Positions 15,015-45,889 of a DNA stretch of 64,000 nt are shown here, piece by piece. Source of the DNA: Rosistilla oblonga (lineage in GTDB: Bacteria; Planctomycetota; Planctomycetia; Pirellulales; Pirellulaceae); the NCBI RefSeq assembly GCF_007751715.1, contig NZ_CP036292.1:1240001-1304000 (forward strand), given 5' to 3'. Position numbers and translations under genes: made by a program. How positions within the stretch are numbered: the first letter of the stretch is position 1; the number at the start of each line of letters is the position of its first letter. The notes under the pieces were generated by a model. That model was not told where the DNA came from and made no database searches. It was given only the letters and a program-made list of their open reading frames with translations.

Positions 15015-15473
15015 TTACGAAGATTCGTCGAACTCAGCAAGGCGAGTCTCGTCGTCAAGTGAGTAGGAATCGGAAGATCTTGAGTTAAAGTTCGAAAAAT
15101 CGTGGATTTGTTTTGCCATCGCGTCGCGCTGCGTCGTCGCATGCCGCTCGCACGTCGCTTCGAGTTCCAGCACCAATTGGCCCAAGGCGTTGCACTGCCC
15201 CGCGACGCTCTGGCAGCGAGCGCGGGCCTCGGGCGAAGCCCACGCGAGGTCGCCGCGCGATTGCAGTGCCGCGATCTCGTCTTGCAATCGCTGCAGTTCC
15301 TCGATCAGCGTCTGCTTCTCCGCTAGCAATTGCAGCAATGCCGTAGCGTCTCCCGCGGTGATCTGTTGCTGCTGCTGTTTCCCCTTCTCGATCAGCACGC
15401 CCAGCAGCCGGAATTTATCGTCGACCAGTTGGCTCAAACGCAGGGCGGCTTCGGCGGGAGAGTGCGAGGTCAT
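15015..15473 (-). CDS. Probable FlgN-like flagellar export chaperone
   Basis: 152 residues, mostly two long helices with coiled-coil character. The central part has the FlgN-like pattern KGKQQQQQI-LLQLLAEKQTLIEELQRLQDE, then a second helix ending near ERHATTQRDAMA. FlgN proteins keep hook-associated proteins soluble before export. Sequence identity within the family is always low, so the call rests on length, helix pattern and the position 38 bases upstream of the HATPase protein and flgB. It could also be another coiled-coil protein of the flagellar apparatus. Confidence 0.5.
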   Translation of the reverse strand: MTSHSPAEAALRLSQLVDDKFRLLGVLIEKGKQQQQQITAGDATALLQLLAEKQTLIEELQRLQDEIAALQSRGDLAWASPEARARCQSVAGQCNALGQLVLELEATCERHATTQRDAMAKQIHDFSNFNSRSSDSYSLDDETRLAEFDESS

Positions 15474-15519
15474 CGATGGCGTCGTTATTTAGGAGGGAGA
15501 GGAAAGTCGGGCGTCGCGA

Positions 15520-18024
15520 TCAACTGTTCAGCAGCCACTGTAGAAATTGCGACCAACCGGCGCGATCGTAACGCGTCGTCTGTGCAAATCGGTCGTCGTA
15601 TTCCGGCGGAATTCGATCGAGGATCTGTTGGGCTTGTTTCAGGATCCGTTGCACGTCGGCCTGGCGATCCAACGCCTCGAAGCATCGCGATTGCTGTACC
15701 AACGCTTCCAACGCGATCGGTTCGTTGATGAATCGATTGATCGTGGCGCTGTAGGCGGTGATGGCATCTTCGTACCTTCGCAGTCCCAGCAGCGCATCGG
15801 CTTCGCCTAGGTAGCAGTTCCGCAGCATCCCCTGCTCTAAATCGCTGAGCGCTCCGTCGTCGTTGACGCTGTTGAGATCCGACCGCAGGCGACGATAGGT
15901 CTCCGCAGCGGCAGCCAAATGGTTTGAGTGGATCAGGTTTTGTTCGCGTCGACTCGAATCGAGCGTGTCGGCCATCTCCGCCCGCAGTTTAGGCCAATCG
16001 GCAGCGTAGCGATGAGCCTGCGCGGCCAGATAAACAGCGCGTCGCGCTTCGCGTAGTCCGGGGTACCGCGTGTTCACCTCTTCGAGTCGACGGATCGCGG
16101 TGTCGAACACCTGCTGGTTCTCGCGATACTGTGAAGCCAGTTCTTCGATCGGTGGTGTTGCCTGGTTCGGCTTCGGCGTCGTTAGAACGAAGTGTGTTGC
16201 GATCGCATCGGCGTACAGCAGTTCGCTTAATGCAATCAGCGAATCTCGCCAGGCGATACTGTCGGGAGCCAGCAGGCCGTCTTGCAGGTTGGCTTCCAGG
16301 TAAGCTTGTGCGGCGCTGGAATCTCCCAGTTCGCGAGCGGCTGCTGCGGCCAGCAGTCGGGCTTCATAAGAGAGGCTGTCGCGTGGAAACTCAACGATAC
16401 AGGCGTCGCAGGTCTGCATCGCCGCGGCGTAATCCTTCAACGCCAACAACGCTTTGGCTTGCAGGATCAGGCCGCGAGGCAGTTGGTCGCGCTGCTGATA
16501 TTTGAGGTAGGATTCCAGCAGATCCAGGCAGGGCTGGTAGAGGTGGGCGAGGTCGTATTGCTCGATCGCGTCCCACAAAAGATCGGGGTACTGCGGCGAC
16601 GTAAACCACAGCTCTGCCGCTTTGGCGTACGCCTTGCCCGCCATCGCATGAAGCTGTTTGGAGCGTTCGAGCGTTGCTCGATCAGCGGTCGCATCGGGGC
16701 GAAGGTTCTCCGCCAGCACGTTTTCGCCCCAGGCGGCATAACTGGCCGCTTCCATCCGCAACGTATCGGCGGGTTCGAAGATCGGTCGCAGTTCTTGCGT
16801 CACATCGATCGCGGTTTCAAATCGTTGCTGCTGTCGCAAGTTGTCGACCACCAGACTCAACCGGCGTCGGAACTCTTCCAGCGAAATCAGCCGCGGGTCG
16901 AAGCCGGTCGGATCGCCGAGGTCGCGGGCTAGATAGGTCGACGTGCCGATGCACTCTTGCGCCGTGCCGTGGTCGGCGAGGATCTCGAGTTCCTCGATCG
17001 CTCCAGCCAGCGAAACCGCAGGATCGACGTGGTTCTGACGGACCGCACCAAGCAATCCCAAGGCCTTGTCGTATTCGCCCAGCAGACGTTGCGCTTGGCC
17101 GGCGACCAGCATCGCGTCGAGTCCCAAGCGTTCATCGGCGGTCCGGGCGATTTCGATCAATTCCTCCAACGCGTCGTCGATGATCTGCCTCGCCTCGGGA
17201 GAGATCGTGGCTTTGGGGGAGATCCGGCGGCGGTCGCGGATCATATCGGCGGCCAGGCCGAGTTGGATCTTTGTCGATTCGAGTCGAGCTTTCGCATCGA
17301 CGCTCGGTTCGGTTGCCGCCTGGCGCGTGGCGGCGAGCGCTGCGTCCCATTCGCTTTGTTCGCGAAGGATTCGGGCGCGAAGCAGGTTGCCTTCGGCGCG
17401 TTCGATACCGTCGATCGTCTGCAGCGTCAGATACTTGTCGATCGTGGCGAGCGCAGCGGCGGGGGCGTATTCGGGAGACCGCAGTTGCGCATCGGCTAGC
17501 GGCTGCAGAAATCGGCGTTGCGCGTCGACGCGGTTTTGGATCCCCTGTTCGAATGCAATCGCGGCTCCCGTGAAATCACCGGTGCGATATTTCGCGTGCC
17601 CCAGCAACAAGGTCCCGTCGCGGGCGTAGATCTCGGGAAACCCAATCAGTTCAGCGTGTTTGAGTTTGTCGATCACGAGGCTCAGCTGAACGCGGAGCGC
17701 ATCGAGTTCGGGTTCTTCAAAGGCTTGTTGAACGGCGCTGGCCGCATCGAGAAATGCGTGCATTTGTCGCTGTTCCTCGGTCCAGTCGGGACTGGCGATC
17801 AGCGATTGGGTAAGCGAGTTGACGACCTTCCAGCGGCCTTCGTTGTATTCTTCTTGAGCCAGTTTGAGCGTGGCGTCGACGTTCACCGACGTCCGCTGCG
17901 CATAGGTGGCAAAGAGCGTCGCGAAGGTACCCAGAGCGACGACAGCTAGCACGGCGATGCTGGCTAGCTTCCAAGGGGTCGCCCGCGGGGCATTTGCTTT
18001 GTCGTCGGCCGTTGTTTCGTCCAA
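15520..18024 (-). CDS. Membrane-anchored TPR protein upstream of the flagellar genes
   Basis: 834 residues. A short Asp/Lys-rich cytoplasmic start is followed by one membrane segment at about 20-42 (LASIAVLAVVALGTFATLF). The rest is a long helical solenoid outside the membrane with repeated tetratricopeptide-like pairs, for example YRTGDFTGAAIAFEQGIQ, GEYDKALGLLGAVR, KDYAAAMQTCDACIVEFP and RRYEDAITAYSATINRF. Such proteins act as assembly scaffolds. It precedes the FlgN-like gene by 46 bases on the same strand, so it may be the first gene of the flagellar transcription unit, but nothing in the protein is specific to flagella. Confidence 0.7.
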   Translation of the reverse strand: MDETTADDKANAPRATPWKLASIAVLAVVALGTFATLFATYAQRTSVNVDATLKLAQEEYNEGRWKVVNSLTQSLIASPDWTEEQRQMHAFLDAASAVQQAFEEPELDALRVQLSLVIDKLKHAELIGFPEIYARDGTLLLGHAKYRTGDFTGAAIAFEQGIQNRVDAQRRFLQPLADAQLRSPEYAPAAALATIDKYLTLQTIDGIERAEGNLLRARILREQSEWDAALAATRQAATEPSVDAKARLESTKIQLGLAADMIRDRRRISPKATISPEARQIIDDALEELIEIARTADERLGLDAMLVAGQAQRLLGEYDKALGLLGAVRQNHVDPAVSLAGAIEELEILADHGTAQECIGTSTYLARDLGDPTGFDPRLISLEEFRRRLSLVVDNLRQQQRFETAIDVTQELRPIFEPADTLRMEAASYAAWGENVLAENLRPDATADRATLERSKQLHAMAGKAYAKAAELWFTSPQYPDLLWDAIEQYDLAHLYQPCLDLLESYLKYQQRDQLPRGLILQAKALLALKDYAAAMQTCDACIVEFPRDSLSYEARLLAAAAARELGDSSAAQAYLEANLQDGLLAPDSIAWRDSLIALSELLYADAIATHFVLTTPKPNQATPPIEELASQYRENQQVFDTAIRRLEEVNTRYPGLREARRAVYLAAQAHRYAADWPKLRAEMADTLDSSRREQNLIHSNHLAAAAETYRRLRSDLNSVNDDGALSDLEQGMLRNCYLGEADALLGLRRYEDAITAYSATINRFINEPIALEALVQQSRCFEALDRQADVQRILKQAQQILDRIPPEYDDRFAQTTRYDRAGWSQFLQWLLNS

Positions 18025-40011: not shown

Positions 40012-43000
40012 TCAATTCGCGAAGGTCATCGATTTGGCGGTCGAATTGCTTTCGGTCGGTTCGGTCCACTGGATATCACAGCGGCTCATTAGGCGTCCGG
40101 CGATCGTAAGGTCGGCACCGAGGGTGCCGACGAGATTTCCCAGGATCGAGGCGACGGGAATTTCCGAGGCTTCGTGCAGGATCATCGTCTTGGCATTGGG
40201 AGCGACGAGGGTGGTGATCTCGCAGCCGACGGCGGCTTCGATCGCTGGTTTCAGCGACGCGAGTTGACGTTTGTCGTCGCCGACCAGCAGCACGCGTTGA
40301 CGGCCACCGAATCGCAACAGTTTGGGACGGGCTCGTTTGAGCGCGGTGTCGATCAGCGATTTCAATTCTTCGCTCGATACGACGCCCGCTCCGCTAGTAT
40401 CGTTCAGCATTTCGTTTGCCGTCTCCGCTGCGGAGGCCATCATCTGGTCCAGCATGTCGCCAATTTTTGGCGGCGTTACGGGAGCCGACGGGCTGAGGCA
40501 TCGGAACAATAGTTTGTCGGCGAATTGATCGTGCAGCGCGGCGGCGACAACCGGTTGGATCTTCCGCTCGGTTAGGTTCGATGACAGGCCGCTTGGCAGT
40601 TGCAGACCCAGCAGCAGCTGATGCAGGTCGGCGAGTTCGTTGGCGTGCGACAACAACTCTTGTTCCAAGCACTTGACCTGGTCGCCGATCTCTTCGAACA
40701 CGATGCCGTTTGGTTTCTGCAGATCGGCTCGCATCAGATCCAGCATCGCCCCCGAGATTCTCGACAGATCGATTTGTTTGACCCGCGTCGATGTCAGGTC
40801 GCTCATGGCGAGATGCAGCGCATCGTTGGCTCGTTCGCGAAGGCTTGTGATCTCGTGCTCGTTCTCTTGAGCGTAAGCAAAACACTGCTTCGTGATCGCT
40901 CGCAGCAGACCTACCGATTGGAACAGGTCCAACTTTTGGTCGCGGAGTTTTTTACGCAGCAGTTGCATCAGCGATCCGATCGATCCCTTCCCCAGCTGTG
41001 GCAGTTCTTGCGTCGGTTCATCGGATTCCGCAGCCATTGCGAGCAGCGGTTGAACTTTGGCACGAGCGCAGATCACTGCGTCTTTGGCGATCGGCGCCGA
41101 TGGGTCGCGCCGCGACTTCATCTCTCTAGCGATCGTTTGTTCCAGTTCGGTGCACCACGTTTCAGGCTTTTGCTGCAGGACTTCTTCGATCTGTTGAGCC
41201 GCCCACAGCGTCGGCGAAACACCGATCTGGTTGAGCGTCGAGATCACATCGTGCCGCAGGTTGGCGTGTTGGGTTTTGGGATCTCCCATCCAGCCGCGGA
41301 TGACTTGGTCGATCGAGCGTTTCTGCAGCCCTTCGAGATCGATCTGCGGGCGGACTTCCAAAGGTGCGGAACCAAAGCTGCGGAGCGTCGCATCGGTGCG
41401 ATTCTCGTTTTCGACTTCCGGGCGTTTCCTCGCTTGATCCATCAAAGCGGGAGCGATGAAGGCATCGTTCCAAAGGTAGTCCGAGAGCAATTGAATGCCG
41501 TCTTGGTCCTTCGATGGTGCCGCGACATAAGCGGCTGGCAACGGGGTTCGCGCGGCCGGAACGGATGCCAATGTGTTGGCCCGATCCTCGGGATAACCTT
41601 TGTTTGGTTGCAGGAAGTAGTGCATCTCGCTGAGCGCCGCGTGAGTCGATGCGATCGACAGCGGGTCGGCGTTGGCAACGTCTTCTGGTACCGAAGCCAA
41701 CATCAATGGACGGACTTCGATTTCGGCAAGGTTGTGTTCGTCCAACAGGTTGCGAAGCATGAACGTAACGTCCAGGAACATGCCGCTGGCGGTACCGCCA
41801 TACAGTGATCCGACGACGTAGATCCGCGGCTTGCGGTTGCCGTCGGGATCGTTTTGTAGTTCGGAGATCGATTGCGAGAGCATCCGTTTCAGATGGCTGG
41901 CATGGTCGATCAACGCCAAGCGTCCCAGCGGGCGGAGCCCTTCGGTGCGTCGTGTTTTGGGGACGTTGTAGATCCACCGGCGGCTGATCGATGTGAACCG
42001 ATCGCCGTGCGATTCACGATAATCGTGAGGGCTCTTCAGCGGGAAACAGGCGCGTTGAACGTTGCAGATCAAATTGTTGGCGATTTCGAATTCGCGAAAC
42101 CTATACAGTTCGGCATCGTCGGTGTCGATCAACAACCCCTGCAGATTGCAAAACGTCGATTCGGAGTTTGTTTGTTTCAGGCACAGTTGTTCCATCACGC
42201 TGCGACCGACGCCACCGAGACCGATCACCAGAGCTTCGCTGGTCTCTAAGCTGGAAAGTTCTTTCGAGTCGAGTCGCGGGAGATTGGCGACGGCTGGGCG
42301 GTTGCTGACCGACAAGCTTTCGCTCAGTTCGTCGAATCGCTGTGTATTCCCATCGACGGGGTTGGCTTGCGTCGGGATCGCGATCGGCCGTTCGCTCGAT
42401 TGCTTCAGACGATTCACGAGGTCGCGGCAACTGGGGAAGCGGCGGTTGGGATCTTTTTCCAAAGCGCGTGCGATCACAGGCCGGTCGGCCGGCGGAAGCG
42501 ATTCCAAGTTGGGCGCGCTGTGAACGTGTTGGGTTGCCAGTTGAGCAATCGTTCGCCCGGCGAACGGTCGGTGTCCGGTCAACATCTCTTGATACATAAC
42601 GGCCAGTGAATATTGGTCGCTGTTGTGATGCGGTCGGCCATCGAAGACTTCCGGCGCAGCGTAGATTGGCGTCAGTCCGCCGACCATCGAACACTCGATA
42701 TCGCCGAGGTCTTTCAGCAGACCGAAGTCGCCAACTTTGACGTGACCGCCAACGATCAACAGGTTCCCAGGTTTGACGTCCAGGTGCTGCAGTTGAAATT
42801 CGTCGTGTAGATAATCGAGTCCATCGGCGGCGTCGTGCAGGTAGCCCAGCAGGTCCGGCTTAGGAATTCCACACGATCCCCGCTCGCGATGCTTGTTGTA
42901 GATATCCTCCAAACTGCCAGCGGCCAGTTCGGTGACGATGATCAATTGACCATTGATGATCTCGAATCGTTCCAACGACAACAGGAACGGATGGTTAACT

Positions 43001-43206
43001 CCTTTGATCCGGTTCAAGGAACGCAATTCGCGCGAACCCCGTTCGCTGTCGTGCGAACCGAAGACAAATTTGATCGCCTTCTCCATCCCGCCGGGCGCTT
43101 CGGCGCTCCAGACTTCGCCGTAGCCACCAGCACCCAGTTTGCGCAAGACCTTGTAGCCAGCGATGGTTTCCGTGCCCGATTCGATTTTTAAAGCTGAAAT
43201 AGTCAT
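40012..43206 (-). CDS. Serine/threonine protein kinase fused to a tubulin/FtsZ-like domain
   Basis: 1064 residues in two parts. Part 1 (about 15-268) is a protein kinase: Gly-loop GAGGYG (25-30), ATP-binding Lys46, catalytic Asp143 in HLDVKPGN (Leu replaces the Arg of HRD), DFG 160-162, APE 184-186. It looks active. After a flexible linker, part 2 (about 325-1064) matches the Tubulin_2 type: nucleotide loop GLGGVG (329-334), an aspartate loop in LLIDTDDAEL, and GGTASG (470-475), equivalent to the tubulin signature GGGTGSG, then long helical regions and a final alpha/beta segment with VLLVGDDKRQ. I infer a GTP-binding protein whose assembly is governed by phosphorylation. It lies 12 bases behind the AAA+ gene in the same operon. 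Function not known. Confidence 0.8.
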   Translation of the reverse strand: MTISALKIESGTETIAGYKVLRKLGAGGYGEVWSAEAPGGMEKAIKFVFGSHDSERGSRELRSLNRIKGVNHPFLLSLERFEIINGQLIIVTELAAGSLEDIYNKHRERGSCGIPKPDLLGYLHDAADGLDYLHDEFQLQHLDVKPGNLLIVGGHVKVGDFGLLKDLGDIECSMVGGLTPIYAAPEVFDGRPHHNSDQYSLAVMYQEMLTGHRPFAGRTIAQLATQHVHSAPNLESLPPADRPVIARALEKDPNRRFPSCRDLVNRLKQSSERPIAIPTQANPVDGNTQRFDELSESLSVSNRPAVANLPRLDSKELSSLETSEALVIGLGGVGRSVMEQLCLKQTNSESTFCNLQGLLIDTDDAELYRFREFEIANNLICNVQRACFPLKSPHDYRESHGDRFTSISRRWIYNVPKTRRTEGLRPLGRLALIDHASHLKRMLSQSISELQNDPDGNRKPRIYVVGSLYGGTASGMFLDVTFMLRNLLDEHNLAEIEVRPLMLASVPEDVANADPLSIASTHAALSEMHYFLQPNKGYPEDRANTLASVPAARTPLPAAYVAAPSKDQDGIQLLSDYLWNDAFIAPALMDQARKRPEVENENRTDATLRSFGSAPLEVRPQIDLEGLQKRSIDQVIRGWMGDPKTQHANLRHDVISTLNQIGVSPTLWAAQQIEEVLQQKPETWCTELEQTIAREMKSRRDPSAPIAKDAVICARAKVQPLLAMAAESDEPTQELPQLGKGSIGSLMQLLRKKLRDQKLDLFQSVGLLRAITKQCFAYAQENEHEITSLRERANDALHLAMSDLTSTRVKQIDLSRISGAMLDLMRADLQKPNGIVFEEIGDQVKCLEQELLSHANELADLHQLLLGLQLPSGLSSNLTERKIQPVVAAALHDQFADKLLFRCLSPSAPVTPPKIGDMLDQMMASAAETANEMLNDTSGAGVVSSEELKSLIDTALKRARPKLLRFGGRQRVLLVGDDKRQLASLKPAIEAAVGCEITTLVAPNAKTMILHEASEIPVASILGNLVGTLGADLTIAGRLMSRCDIQWTEPTESNSTAKSMTFAN

Positions 43207-43218
43207 TGTGCCTACTAT

Positions 43219-44553
43219 CTATAGTTCGCTGAAGTAGCTCTTACATGCTTGGTCCAAGAAGTCGGGTCTCAGTTGAGGTGGGATCTTCTTGTACTTACAA
43301 AAGTTGTTCACTTGGGTGAGGATGTCGCGCGGCTGACAGCGTCGCAGCGACCGACCGCTCTGTTCGTAGAACCTCAACAGATGCTCGGCGGCTCCCTTGG
43401 CCGGAGCGAACCCCATCTTTTCAACGTTGTGGTTGAATATCCGCGTAAACTCTTTCGGATCGGGGTCGTCGACCATGATCTTGTAGGGGACGCGACGCAG
43501 GAACGCTTCGTCGACCAATTGGTCGGGGTTCAGGTTTGTCGAGAAGATGATCAGCTGTTCAAACGGCAGTTCGATCTTTTTGCCCGATGGTAGAGTCAGG
43601 AAGTCGATCCGATTTTCGAGCGGGATGATCCACCGGTTTAATAGTTCCTCGGGCTGGATGCGTTGTCGGCCAAAGTCGTCGATCAACAGACAGCCGCAGT
43701 TGCTTTTCAGTTGCAGCGGTGCTTCGCAAGTGTTGGACCGTGGGTCGTGGCGGACCTCCAAATTATCCATCACCAATTCGCCACCAACGATTACCGTCGG
43801 GCGTTGGATCCGAATCCAGCGTCGATCCCATTGCTGCGCCTTGATGATTCCGTCGCCCGTTTCGGGGATCGGCATCGGTCGATGGAAGGCATCGTCTTGG
43901 ACCTTGATCAGATTGCCATCATCGAAGATCGCGTGAGGAATCCAGACCTCTTGCCCCAGGCATTGGGTCAAGCATCGTGCGATCGTGGTCTTGCCGTTGC
44001 CGGGAGGTCCAAACAAAAACAGGCCGCTGTTGCTGTTGATCGCCGGACCTAGTTGATCCAGTAGTTCGTTGTTGTGCGAGATGCCCGACAGTGCGCCACG
44101 CAGGTCGTCGTATCCGATCGGGTCGAGTCCGGCCGCTTGCGCCTCGACGCTCAGGACGTAGTCGCTCAGTGGAACCGGAGCTGGCCCGGTGTAAGCGCAG
44201 TGACTCATGTGTGTCTGCGCTCGCTTTTGGCCGTTTTCGGATAATGAATAGTAGTAGTCGTTGAAAGCTGCGGGGCGAACGTGGGTGATCAACTGACGCG
44301 TTCGCTGAGCTTCCAGTAGTGGTTCGACAACGCCAAATGGAATCCCGGTCCGCTCTGCCATCGCGCGACCGCTGAGTGTTCCCGTATTGAGGAAGATCTT
44401 TAATATCAACGCATCGATATACGATTCGGAGAGTCCCGTCTCGTCGAGATTGCGCGGTTCGGTTGGCCAGAAGGTGTCACCACCTAATAAGCCAGACAGA
44501 AGCGCGGAATCGATGCTGTGCGTTTGATTCAATACAGTCACTAAGATCACCAA
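43219..44553 (-). CDS. AAA+ ATPase with N-terminal winged-helix domain
   Basis: Up to 444 residues. The start is uncertain: TTG at 44553, GTG at 44550 or 44541 and TTG at 44535 all precede the conserved part and none has a good ribosome binding site. A winged-helix-like domain covers about 35-115 (GTLSGRAMAERTGIPFGVVE). The AAA+ core shows Walker A GPPGNGKT (182-189), Walker B LLIDDFG (289-295), sensor 1 IIFSTN (335-340) and an arginine-finger region FLRRVPYK. A family of such ATPases occurs widely, often near pili or signalling genes; its role is open. Its stop is 12 bases before the kinase-tubulin ATG, so the two are translated from one mRNA and probably act together, for instance in remodelling tubulin-like polymers. 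Confidence 0.85.
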   Translation of the reverse strand: MVILVTVLNQTHSIDSALLSGLLGGDTFWPTEPRNLDETGLSESYIDALILKIFLNTGTLSGRAMAERTGIPFGVVEPLLEAQRTRQLITHVRPAAFNDYYYSLSENGQKRAQTHMSHCAYTGPAPVPLSDYVLSVEAQAAGLDPIGYDDLRGALSGISHNNELLDQLGPAINSNSGLFLFGPPGNGKTTIARCLTQCLGQEVWIPHAIFDDGNLIKVQDDAFHRPMPIPETGDGIIKAQQWDRRWIRIQRPTVIVGGELVMDNLEVRHDPRSNTCEAPLQLKSNCGCLLIDDFGRQRIQPEELLNRWIIPLENRIDFLTLPSGKKIELPFEQLIIFSTNLNPDQLVDEAFLRRVPYKIMVDDPDPKEFTRIFNHNVEKMGFAPAKGAAEHLLRFYEQSGRSLRRCQPRDILTQVNNFCKYKKIPPQLRPDFLDQACKSYFSEL

Positions 44554-44755
44554 CCGAGAGTCGAACGATATTGGTTTGCAGACATTCCGCTAAAACGTAG
44601 CTCGCTAGTTCAACCAGGGAAGTGAGAACGGACAAACTCACGAAAAAGATGTATTGCTTTGTGCACTGTGTGATTTGCGTCCTAGACTTCGAAAGATCTC
44701 TGGACATAACAGGTACCAAAATGGACAAGCCGTCCTCTTGCGGGTTGCACTGAAT

Positions 44756-45889
44756 ATGACAATCGTTCCGAATATGATCGCAACCAATAAACCTCCTGCC
44801 GATGTTGGCAGCGATGTGTGGTTCCTCAGCGGCCCAACGCGGCCGGGTGATGTTTCTCGCTACATTCCTGTAGAAGAAGAACCATTTGTGGTTGGGCGTA
44901 AGCCGAACGTGAACCTGACATTGGGATACAACACCGTCAGCAGTGCGCACGCCAGTCTATGGACAGAAGAAGGGCAACTGTGGTTGCAGGATCTGGGCAG
45001 CACCAACGGAACCTTTGTCAACGGGCAACGGATCTCACAACCGGTTCGATTGGGTGAAGAGGATCTCGTTCACTTCGCCGAAGCGTTGTTCCGAATTCGC
45101 CGCCAAAGCATCGGTGCCTCGACATCTGGAACTATTCCGCAGAACGTTTGCGATCAAGCGTTGGCTCTTGTTCAGTTCGATCGATTGATGAGCGAACGAT
45201 TGGTCGTTCCGCATTTCCAACCGATCGTGCGGATGAGCGACAACGAGATGTTGGGGTTTGAGATCTTGGGACGTGGACGCGTCTTCGGCCTGGAATCGGT
45301 CGGCGCGATGTTCGAAGCCGCGTCGCAATTGAATCTCGAAGTCGATCTCAGCCAGATGCTGCGCTGGGAAGGAGTTCGCGTCGGCCGCAGCCTGCCGCAA
45401 TGTCCTGTCTTATTTGTAAATACACATCCCGCCGAACTCGCCAATGATGGGCTCGAGACCTCTTTGGAACTGCTCCGCGATATGGCGGGCAGCACGCGGC
45501 TGGTACTCGAAATTCACGAATCGGCGGTCACCAATCCCGAATTACTATGCCAGTTGCAGGCCAAACTTCAGGCCCTCGGGATCGGGCTGGCCTACGACGA
45601 TTTCGGTTCCGGCCAAGCGCGACTGAGCGAATTGGTCCAAGCGCGGCCCGAATTTGTCAAATTTGATATGTCGTTGATCCGCGACATCGATACTGCCAGT
45701 CCCGAGCGCCAACGAATGCTCGAAGCTCTGGTCAAGATGGTCCGCGATCTCGACATCCAAGCGTTGGCCGAGGGGATCGAAAGCAAGGCGGAAGCAGAGT
45801 TCTGCATGCAGGTCGGATTCGATTTGGCCCAGGGGTTCTATTATGGCCGCCCCGTTCCGATCGAAGCGGCGACCGATCGCAGCGAATAG
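44756..45889 (+). CDS. FHA-EAL protein (phosphothreonine reader plus cyclic-di-GMP domain)
   Basis: 377 residues from the ATG at 44756; the frame is open further upstream but only the part from here fits. An FHA domain lies at about 45-115, with VGRKPNVNLTL, VSSAHASLW and LQDLGSTNGTFVNG, the loops that bind phosphothreonine. An EAL domain lies at about 140-370: E169 in FEILGRG (EIL for EAL), N222 in NTHPAEL, E252 in LEIHES, D281-D282 in YDDFGSG, K302 in VKFDMSLI and E339 in AEGIES. The metal and substrate residues are all kept, so it may hydrolyse cyclic-di-GMP. It is divergent from the AAA+ and kinase-tubulin genes, 202 bases apart, and so could read that kinase's targets. Confidence 0.85.
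   Translation: MTIVPNMIATNKPPADVGSDVWFLSGPTRPGDVSRYIPVEEEPFVVGRKPNVNLTLGYNTVSSAHASLWTEEGQLWLQDLGSTNGTFVNGQRISQPVRLGEEDLVHFAEALFRIRRQSIGASTSGTIPQNVCDQALALVQFDRLMSERLVVPHFQPIVRMSDNEMLGFEILGRGRVFGLESVGAMFEAASQLNLEVDLSQMLRWEGVRVGRSLPQCPVLFVNTHPAELANDGLETSLELLRDMAGSTRLVLEIHESAVTNPELLCQLQAKLQALGIGLAYDDFGSGQARLSELVQARPEFVKFDMSLIRDIDTASPERQRMLEALVKMVRDLDIQALAEGIESKAEAEFCMQVGFDLAQGFYYGRPVPIEAATDRSE

Follow-up and report, generated by a model that had tools for sequence, protein, structure and literature searches.

A kinase-tubulin fusion with AAA+ and FHA-EAL partner genes in FtsZ-less planctomycetes

Genes and domains at the locus

A stretch of 64,000 nucleotides of the Rosistilla oblonga genome (contig NZ_CP036292.1, positions 1,240,001 to 1,304,000; hereafter the window) carries three neighboring genes, which encode a protein kinase fused to a tubulin-type domain, an AAA+ ATPase, and an FHA-EAL protein. 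The fusion frame (40012-43206, minus strand) encodes 1064 amino acids, with an N-terminal kinase and a Tubulin_2 domain. The AAA+ gene lies upstream on the same strand, and its stop codon is separated from the fusion ATG by 12 bases, the spacing given by the original prediction, which had been made from the sequence alone. The FHA-EAL frame lies on the plus strand and is divergent from the other two. Its predicted distance of 202 bases from the AAA+ gene holds when the internal ATG at 44756 is taken as the start; the longest frame, beginning with TTG at 44654, leaves 100 bases. The features are as follows.

40012..43206, minus strand: kinase-tubulin fusion, 1064 amino acids; tubulin part found in 23 of 40 genomes, counting its own
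42421..43155, minus strand: Ser/Thr protein kinase domain, residues 18-262 (Pfam PF00069); HLD replaces HRD, DFG present
41437..42243, minus strand: tubulin-type GTPase domain, about residues 322-590 (Pfam PF13809 and structure model)
41782-41799, minus strand: T4 loop GGTASG (motif position)
40309..41280, minus strand: predicted helical insert, about residues 643-966, within the second tubulin domain (model secondary structure; the element order is an interpretation)
40123..40302, minus strand: predicted second half of the activation domain, about residues 969-1028 (structure model and alignment)
43219..44553, minus strand: winged-helix AAA+ ATPase of the tubulin-linked subfamily, 444 amino acids (alignment, profile scores, and model)
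43984-44010, minus strand: AAA+ Walker A (motif position)
43660-43689, minus strand: AAA+ Walker B (motif position)
44200..44427, minus strand: predicted AAA+ N-terminal winged-helix domain, residues 43-118 (model; MarR-type structural matches)
44654..45889, plus strand: FHA-EAL protein, longest frame; likely start ATG 44756 (Pfam and alignment)
44888..45076, plus strand: FHA domain, residues 79-141 (Pfam PF00498)
45131..45133, plus strand: Thr160, candidate phosphosite after the FHA domain (residue conservation)
45182..45853, plus strand: EAL domain, residues 177-400 (Pfam PF00563); 12 of 12 checked residues

Both domains of the fusion were matched by Pfam within the single frame of 1064 residues, as had been predicted: Pkinase at residues 18-262 (109.8 bits against a cut-off of 31.7, E 1.9e-31) and Tubulin_2 (PF13809) at residues 326-566 (80.5 bits against a curated cut-off of 27, E 1.9e-22). 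The Ser/Thr kinase signature is complete, with the G-loop, Lys, catalytic Asp, DFG, and APE. All the residues and motifs that had been named beforehand were found, namely Lys46, Asp143, DFG (160-162), IGLGGVG (328-334), IDTDD (360-364), and GGTASG (470-475). The last of these is the GTP loop; most relatives have GGTGSG there, or a sequence close to it. Across the alignment rows, duplicates included, the activation loop of the kinase keeps Ser173 in 51 of 54 and Thr179 in 52 of 55.

The tubulin part (residues 306-1064) was modeled from 21 sequences, with a mean predicted local distance difference test score (pLDDT) of 79.5 and a predicted template modeling score of 0.63. A phmmer search with the tubulin part against the PDB sequences gave nothing at E up to 1. 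By VIA-align, the model matched CetZ with a Z of 23.7 over 299 residues, BtubA with 21.8, and TubZ and FtsZ with 21.2 each; the tubulin-superfamily matches listed had Z values of 20.8-23.7 over 267-339 aligned residues, and their alignments begin at model residue 14-18 and finish at about 711-757. By Foldseek, the best E-value was 2.4e-4, 49 of the 50 matches listed were tubulin-superfamily entries, and TubZ was the first of them. Among the matches listed, the fusion thus resembles CetZ, TubZ, FtsZ, and tubulin in fold, but it is 8-15% identical to them, lacks a PF00091 match and the T7 motif, and carries a large insert and an N-terminal kinase. Helices span model residues 319-661. We read the order of elements as the GTPase domain, S7 and H9, the helical insert, and then S8 to H11. 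A tubulin fold with both domains and a helical insert of about 330 residues is predicted from the model, in keeping with the tubulin fold that had been expected after the kinase and contrary to one of the two refuting outcomes named beforehand, the lack of such a fold in residues 325-1064. Four residues just past the second half of the activation domain, R1038, R1042, D1044, and W1047, are near-invariant.

The fusion itself is already known and is not new, because it has been described in PMC2875224, PMC9871819, and PMC11032199. Makarova and Koonin named the family FtsZl1 in 2010 and described four planctomycete members with an N-terminal kinase (PMC2875224). The kinase-tubulin architecture is also mentioned in PMC9871819, and planctomycetal Ser/Thr kinases with a tubulin-like domain appear in a 2024 kinase survey (PMC11032199), where the relevant section treats domain architectures and leaves gene partners unmentioned. 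The window's protein shares with FtsZl1 the Tubulin_2 match, the FtsZ-like N-terminal part, the long helical region that follows it, and the kinase found in the four planctomycetes. The difference lies in the C-terminal part: according to the main text of PMC2875224, FtsZl1 was unalignable past helix H5 and no similarity of the C-terminal domain was seen, whereas the present model shows tubulin-like elements past the helical part.

Outside the fusions, a frame of 137 residues at G391:C3:168575-168916 aligns with the tubulin profile at its C-terminal end alone (90.5 bits) and is possibly the remnant of a lost gene.

Co-occurrence of the fusion and the AAA+ gene

The relatives set consisted of 40 genomes, the window's own (G000) and 39 relatives. 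No PF00091 match was found in the window's genome or in any of the 40 (0/40, own included), while 13 of 14 control genomes were positive. The absence of FtsZ that had been assumed is therefore borne out by this profile for all of them. The tubulin part was matched in 23 of the 40. Stretches of up to 20 kb were examined around the tubulin part in these 23 genomes and around 18 further Pfam hits from 392 genomes of the phylum; 40 stretches were fetched, and that of G000 was taken from the window itself. A scan of the genome contigs with the tubulin part as a single protein retrieved no relative, and an AAA+ alignment was used to retrieve loci instead, with the best 80 of 586 loci kept. The tubulin-first and AAA+-first finds together gave 51 distinct kinase-tubulin loci. 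L120 (same protein as L076) and L091 and L095 (other Tubulin_2 proteins without kinase) were dropped before the counts, and the kinase-less L073 was excluded from the 51. L086 and L090-L098, which are Pfam Tubulin_2 hits other than this fusion, served only as a contrast set.

The AAA+ protein has only AAA matches in Pfam, all under cut-off. In an alignment of 19 sequences, neither its Walker A core G-x-PGNGK nor any position of its Walker B LLIDDFGR varies. A model built from 31 sequences (mean pLDDT 82.3) places a winged helix at the N-terminus, ahead of the AAA+ part. The winged helix gave MarR-type matches (Z 11.4-12.2 over 71-79 residues). The matches listed for the AAA+ part include Mg-chelatase BchI at Z 12.6, a functionally uncharacterized Pyrococcus protein at 12.5, and ComM at 12.2 and, besides MCM subunits, sigma-54 activators (FleQ, for example, at about 11). 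Differences of up to 1 in Z count as ties. The spastin and VCP profile matches of the protein centre on the P-loop. The Vps4/katanin/spastin clade is not among the 50 structural matches listed, which does not rule the clade out.

Members of the linked AAA+ subfamily (at least 700 bits) are complete in 20 of the 23 genomes with the tubulin part and in none of the 17 without it, where the best score was 633 (Fisher test 2.6e-8, a descriptive value). In two further genomes, G009 and G021, AAA+ fragments stand at contig ends and probably belong to the same gene. Six of the 20 genomes (G005, G020, G027, G032, G034, and G038) carry the AAA+ gene apart from the tubulin gene, at a distance of 3.5 Mb in G020 and otherwise on another contig, and these six genes were absent from the search alignment. 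A search of the 392 phylum genomes found the fusion (at least 560 bits) in 10 of them and the AAA+ protein (at least 766 bits; the next score is 623) in exactly these 10.

The AAA+-first scan gave a similar picture. Scores in the best 80 of 586 loci were split into 26 loci with at least 690 bits and 54 with at most 622. A tubulin gene was present at 22 of the 26 high-scoring loci and at none of the 54 low-scoring ones. For the remaining four (L110, L111, L119, and L122), a full tubulin part was found at another place in the genome (502-782 bits), so that all 26 lie in genomes with the tubulin part; one of these genomes, G431, is probably G027 again, judging by the coordinates. From the other direction, the AAA+ gene lies within the fetched stretch in 21 of 30 tubulin-first kinase loci, window included. 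The neighbors common to more than seven loci are the AAA+, FHA-EAL, and GGDEF types alone. The 54 AAA+ paralogue loci had no conserved neighbor, the largest shared cluster being present in five loci. At the ten other Tubulin_2 loci of the contrast set, no AAA+, FHA, or EAL match was found, although some of these contigs are short. The presence of these genes, their co-occurrence, and the intact kinase motifs are established at the sequence level. The survey of planctomycetes proposed with the original prediction thus finds the association of fusion, AAA+, and FHA-EAL conserved. The scattering of the three genes among relatives, which had been named as the other refuting outcome, is not seen overall, but the AAA+ gene is unlinked in some relatives.

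The window's genome has a second AAA+ paralogue (G000:C1:805672-806940, 48% identity). Its relatives are widespread in planctomycetes, and record titles also name Obscuribacterales and Cyanobacteria (L171, L177).

The FHA-EAL protein and the cyclic dinucleotide domains

The FHA-EAL protein was matched by Pfam to EAL with 140.4 bits and to FHA with 65.2 bits. All 12 checked EAL positions, which we take to be the catalytic and metal-binding ones, are present in the window protein, as had been claimed for its metal and substrate residues. In the window's genome, the whole FHA-EAL protein is matched at one place, and 12 further places match it over a single domain or a part. An FHA or FHA-EAL gene adjoins the fusion or its AAA+ gene in 29 of the 30 tubulin-first kinase loci. 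Over the 51 loci, an FHA gene is present at 48, with an EAL domain that has all 12 checked residues in 31 and at most six in 17.

The three loci without the gene are L062, L100, and L104. L062 (G006:C29) has a degenerate kinase, with HLN for HLD and an altered G-loop, and its genome contains neither the linked AAA+ subfamily nor a match covering FHA and EAL. In Rhodopirellula europaea (L100), the FHA-EAL gene lies on another contig, with 62% identity. L104 was excluded from the FHA count. Outside the 51 loci, the AAA+ and tubulin genes of L073 (G028:C247) overlap with no kinase between them, and no FHA gene is present at the locus; it is a natural kinase-less version of the module. The FHA-EAL gene was found with 49 of 49 judgeable intact-kinase loci and was not found with the two that lack kinase motifs (L062, L073), in whose genomes no match covers both FHA and EAL and FHA-domain matches reach up to 40 bits.

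The FHA residues R82, H99, N118, and N123 are kept in every aligned protein, and Ser96 is invariant in the alignment. All 32 aligned proteins with an intact EAL have Thr160, against 10 of the 18 with a degenerate one. By sequence conservation, Thr160 and the kinase residues Ser173 and Thr179 may be phosphorylated. The GarA/OdhI-type FHA switch has an FHA domain, a conserved flanking Thr before it, and a kinase partner. The FHA-EAL protein shares the FHA domain, a conserved flanking Thr, and the kinase partner; here, however, the Thr stands after rather than before the FHA domain and the EAL domain follows. By eye, M-x-T-[QE] stands at the start, or close to it, in 14 of the 17 degenerate-EAL proteins (FHA proteins of L061-L085), and a Thr-rich motif lies past the FHA domain in most of them. 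These might be further phosphosites.

A fourth gene, of GGDEF type, is present in 21 distinct loci (22 with a duplicate). Six examples were scanned: three match GGDEF, CBS, and Response_reg (the last sub-cut-off in one), one has CBS alone over cut-off, and two have GGDEF alone. These two architectures, joined by their GGDEF similarity, may be non-orthologous. In 16 loci the GGDEF and the EAL motifs have both degenerated; in five, both are intact. L068 has a degenerate EAL and no GGDEF-type gene clustered at the locus. The window's own locus has an intact EAL and no GGDEF neighbor. In L072, a second GGDEF-type gene (15042-16700) with an intact RFGGEEF stands beside the degenerate first one and was excluded from the 16. 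In a tree of 51 proteins, the degenerate EAL needs four changes, but the well-supported branches force only one, so the degeneration may be a single event. Since the FHA residues are kept in all proteins, the comparison suggests that phosphate reading is the core and cyclic dinucleotide catalysis is optional.

Readings of the module

The co-occurrence in relatives suggests that the three proteins work as one machine. Our preferred reading, to which we give a probability of roughly 0.5, is that the fusion, the AAA+ ATPase, and the FHA-EAL protein form one phosphorylation-gated signaling module around a tubulin-fold protein. The interactions and activities within it are those we infer. The kinase would phosphorylate itself, Thr160 of the FHA-EAL protein, or both. 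The FHA domain could then dock on phosphothreonine, either of the fusion or of its own Thr160, and this docking would place the EAL domain at the tubulin-like assembly. An intact EAL would lower cyclic di-GMP (c-di-GMP) locally. Where the EAL and the neighboring GGDEF are both degenerate, they may act as nucleotide-binding or scaffold parts. The tubulin-like part would serve as a GTP-dependent switch or assembly, which the AAA+ ATPase would load or disassemble.

Several points weigh against this module. Profiles A1 and A4 were partly built from the searched genomes, which makes presence there in part a circular result, a concern that does not touch absence elsewhere or the six unlinked AAA+ cases. 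The samples overlap and the species are related, and shared ancestry means that the Fisher values overstate independence. G006 has the tubulin part, yet the linked AAA+ protein is absent. The Foldseek TM-scores of the tubulin-superfamily matches listed are low, 0.16-0.24 by query, and the GTP loop of the window reads GGTASG (that of FtsZl1 is GGGTG[ST]G). The dependence of the FHA gene on the kinase rests on two cases, in which FHA-only matches could hide a protein of the degenerate type. In the genome of L104 no match to the whole FHA-EAL protein was seen, though the contig there stops at the AAA+ gene. The EAL domain is degenerate, with at least six of the 12 checked residues lost, in 17 of 48 loci; therefore, c-di-GMP degradation cannot be the general output, and the comparison argues against c-di-GMP hydrolysis as the core function. 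The link from phosphorylation to c-di-GMP proposed for the FHA-EAL protein is accordingly kept in part: the gene tracks intact kinase motifs and many loci have a GGDEF-type partner, but degradation does not hold throughout.

The last point concerns the T7 catalytic motif NxDxx[DE], which is not conserved within residues 565-610 in up to 52 sequences; R593 (44/51) and D590 (24/51) alone stand out in this region. It also argues against a simple FtsZ-like polymer, and so bears on the nearest alternative, a dynamic filament of the kind put forward in the original prediction: it would polymerize with GTP under the control of phosphorylation, be cut or remodeled by the AAA+ protein, and provide cells lacking FtsZ with a cytoskeleton for shape or budding. 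We regard this as possible but doubtful. The predicted two-domain tubulin fold (CetZ Z 23.7 over 299 residues; TubZ, FtsZ, and tubulin about 21), the GGTGSG-like loop in most members, and the absence of PF00091 proteins from these genomes are consistent with it. The helical insert, however, interrupts the activation (second tubulin) domain, and the listed matches of the AAA+ model are mainly of Mg-chelatase, ComM, MCM, and sigma-54 activator types. The presence of the fusion is also patchy, in 23 of 40 genomes and in 10 of 392 in the phylum, which means that it is not a general FtsZ replacement.

TubR couples DNA to TubZ, and a similar DNA positioning system, in which the AAA+ protein would bind DNA through its winged helix and tie it to a tubulin-like assembly, is improbable here. 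The MarR-type fold of the winged helix, the MCM and ComM matches of the AAA+ part, and TubZ as the first Foldseek match would fit such a role, but winged helices can bind proteins too, and the orphan AAA+ paralogues without tubulin mostly match the profile from about position 26, winged helix included.

Least probable of all is a role in phage defense or conflict for a system of kinase, AAA+, and tubulin-like parts: in PADLOC the kinase matches mad6 with 159.5 bits and PD-T4-6 with 138.5 bits, the AAA+ protein matches IetA with 38.8 bits, and tubulin-containing GTPase systems are described as conflict systems in PMC7159879, but the two best PADLOC kinase matches are confined to the kinase domain (4-289 at most), the NCBIfam scores lie far under cut-off (MAD6 74.3 against 460, IteA 35.4 against 510), and the neighbors common to more than seven loci are of no other kinds than those given above. 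An identity of the fusion with the MADS defense kinase MAD6 was rejected on the same curated cut-off.

As for earlier reports of the signaling module, the operon partners of FtsZl1 in PMC2875224 are typically vWA and GTPase genes, whereas those found here are AAA+, FHA-EAL, and GGDEF types (no vWA, GTPase, or OmpA profile was run on the neighbors). A reviewer comment in PMC2875224 mentions a diguanylate phosphodiesterase that accompanies the gene in Pirellula staleyi; the main text leaves FHA unmentioned and mentions AAA only for chelatases, its supplements being outside this scope. The three-gene module, the AAA+ partner, and the conserved FHA-EAL partner were not found in the open literature, supplements outside scope, including the available parts of PMC2875224, PMC9871819, PMC6952346, PMC4672568, PMC7159879, PMC11032199, PMC1262709, and PMC10632474; the context tables of 2010 may list partners. 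No tested function was found there for the fusion, which has been in print since 2010.

A broader and bolder form of the module, somewhat less likely than the filament, would have FtsZ-less planctomycetes build GTP-dependent kinase-tubulin assemblies whose state is read by the FHA protein and coupled to c-di-GMP through a dedicated EAL and GGDEF, with the winged-helix AAA+ protein as loader, and with EAL and GGDEF turned into a sensor or scaffold pair in one part of the tree. If true, this would be a bacterial signaling cytoskeleton without a counterpart known to us. The matched degeneration of EAL and GGDEF is a natural experiment on enzymes becoming sensors, and the predicted second tubulin domain, unalignable in 2010, would change the reading of the family. 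The fixed set of partners gives testable handles, namely the phosphorylated Thr, FHA binding, and the action of the AAA+ protein on the tubulin part. In organisms that divide without FtsZ, the module would bring Ser/Thr phosphorylation and c-di-GMP together with a tubulin-fold protein.

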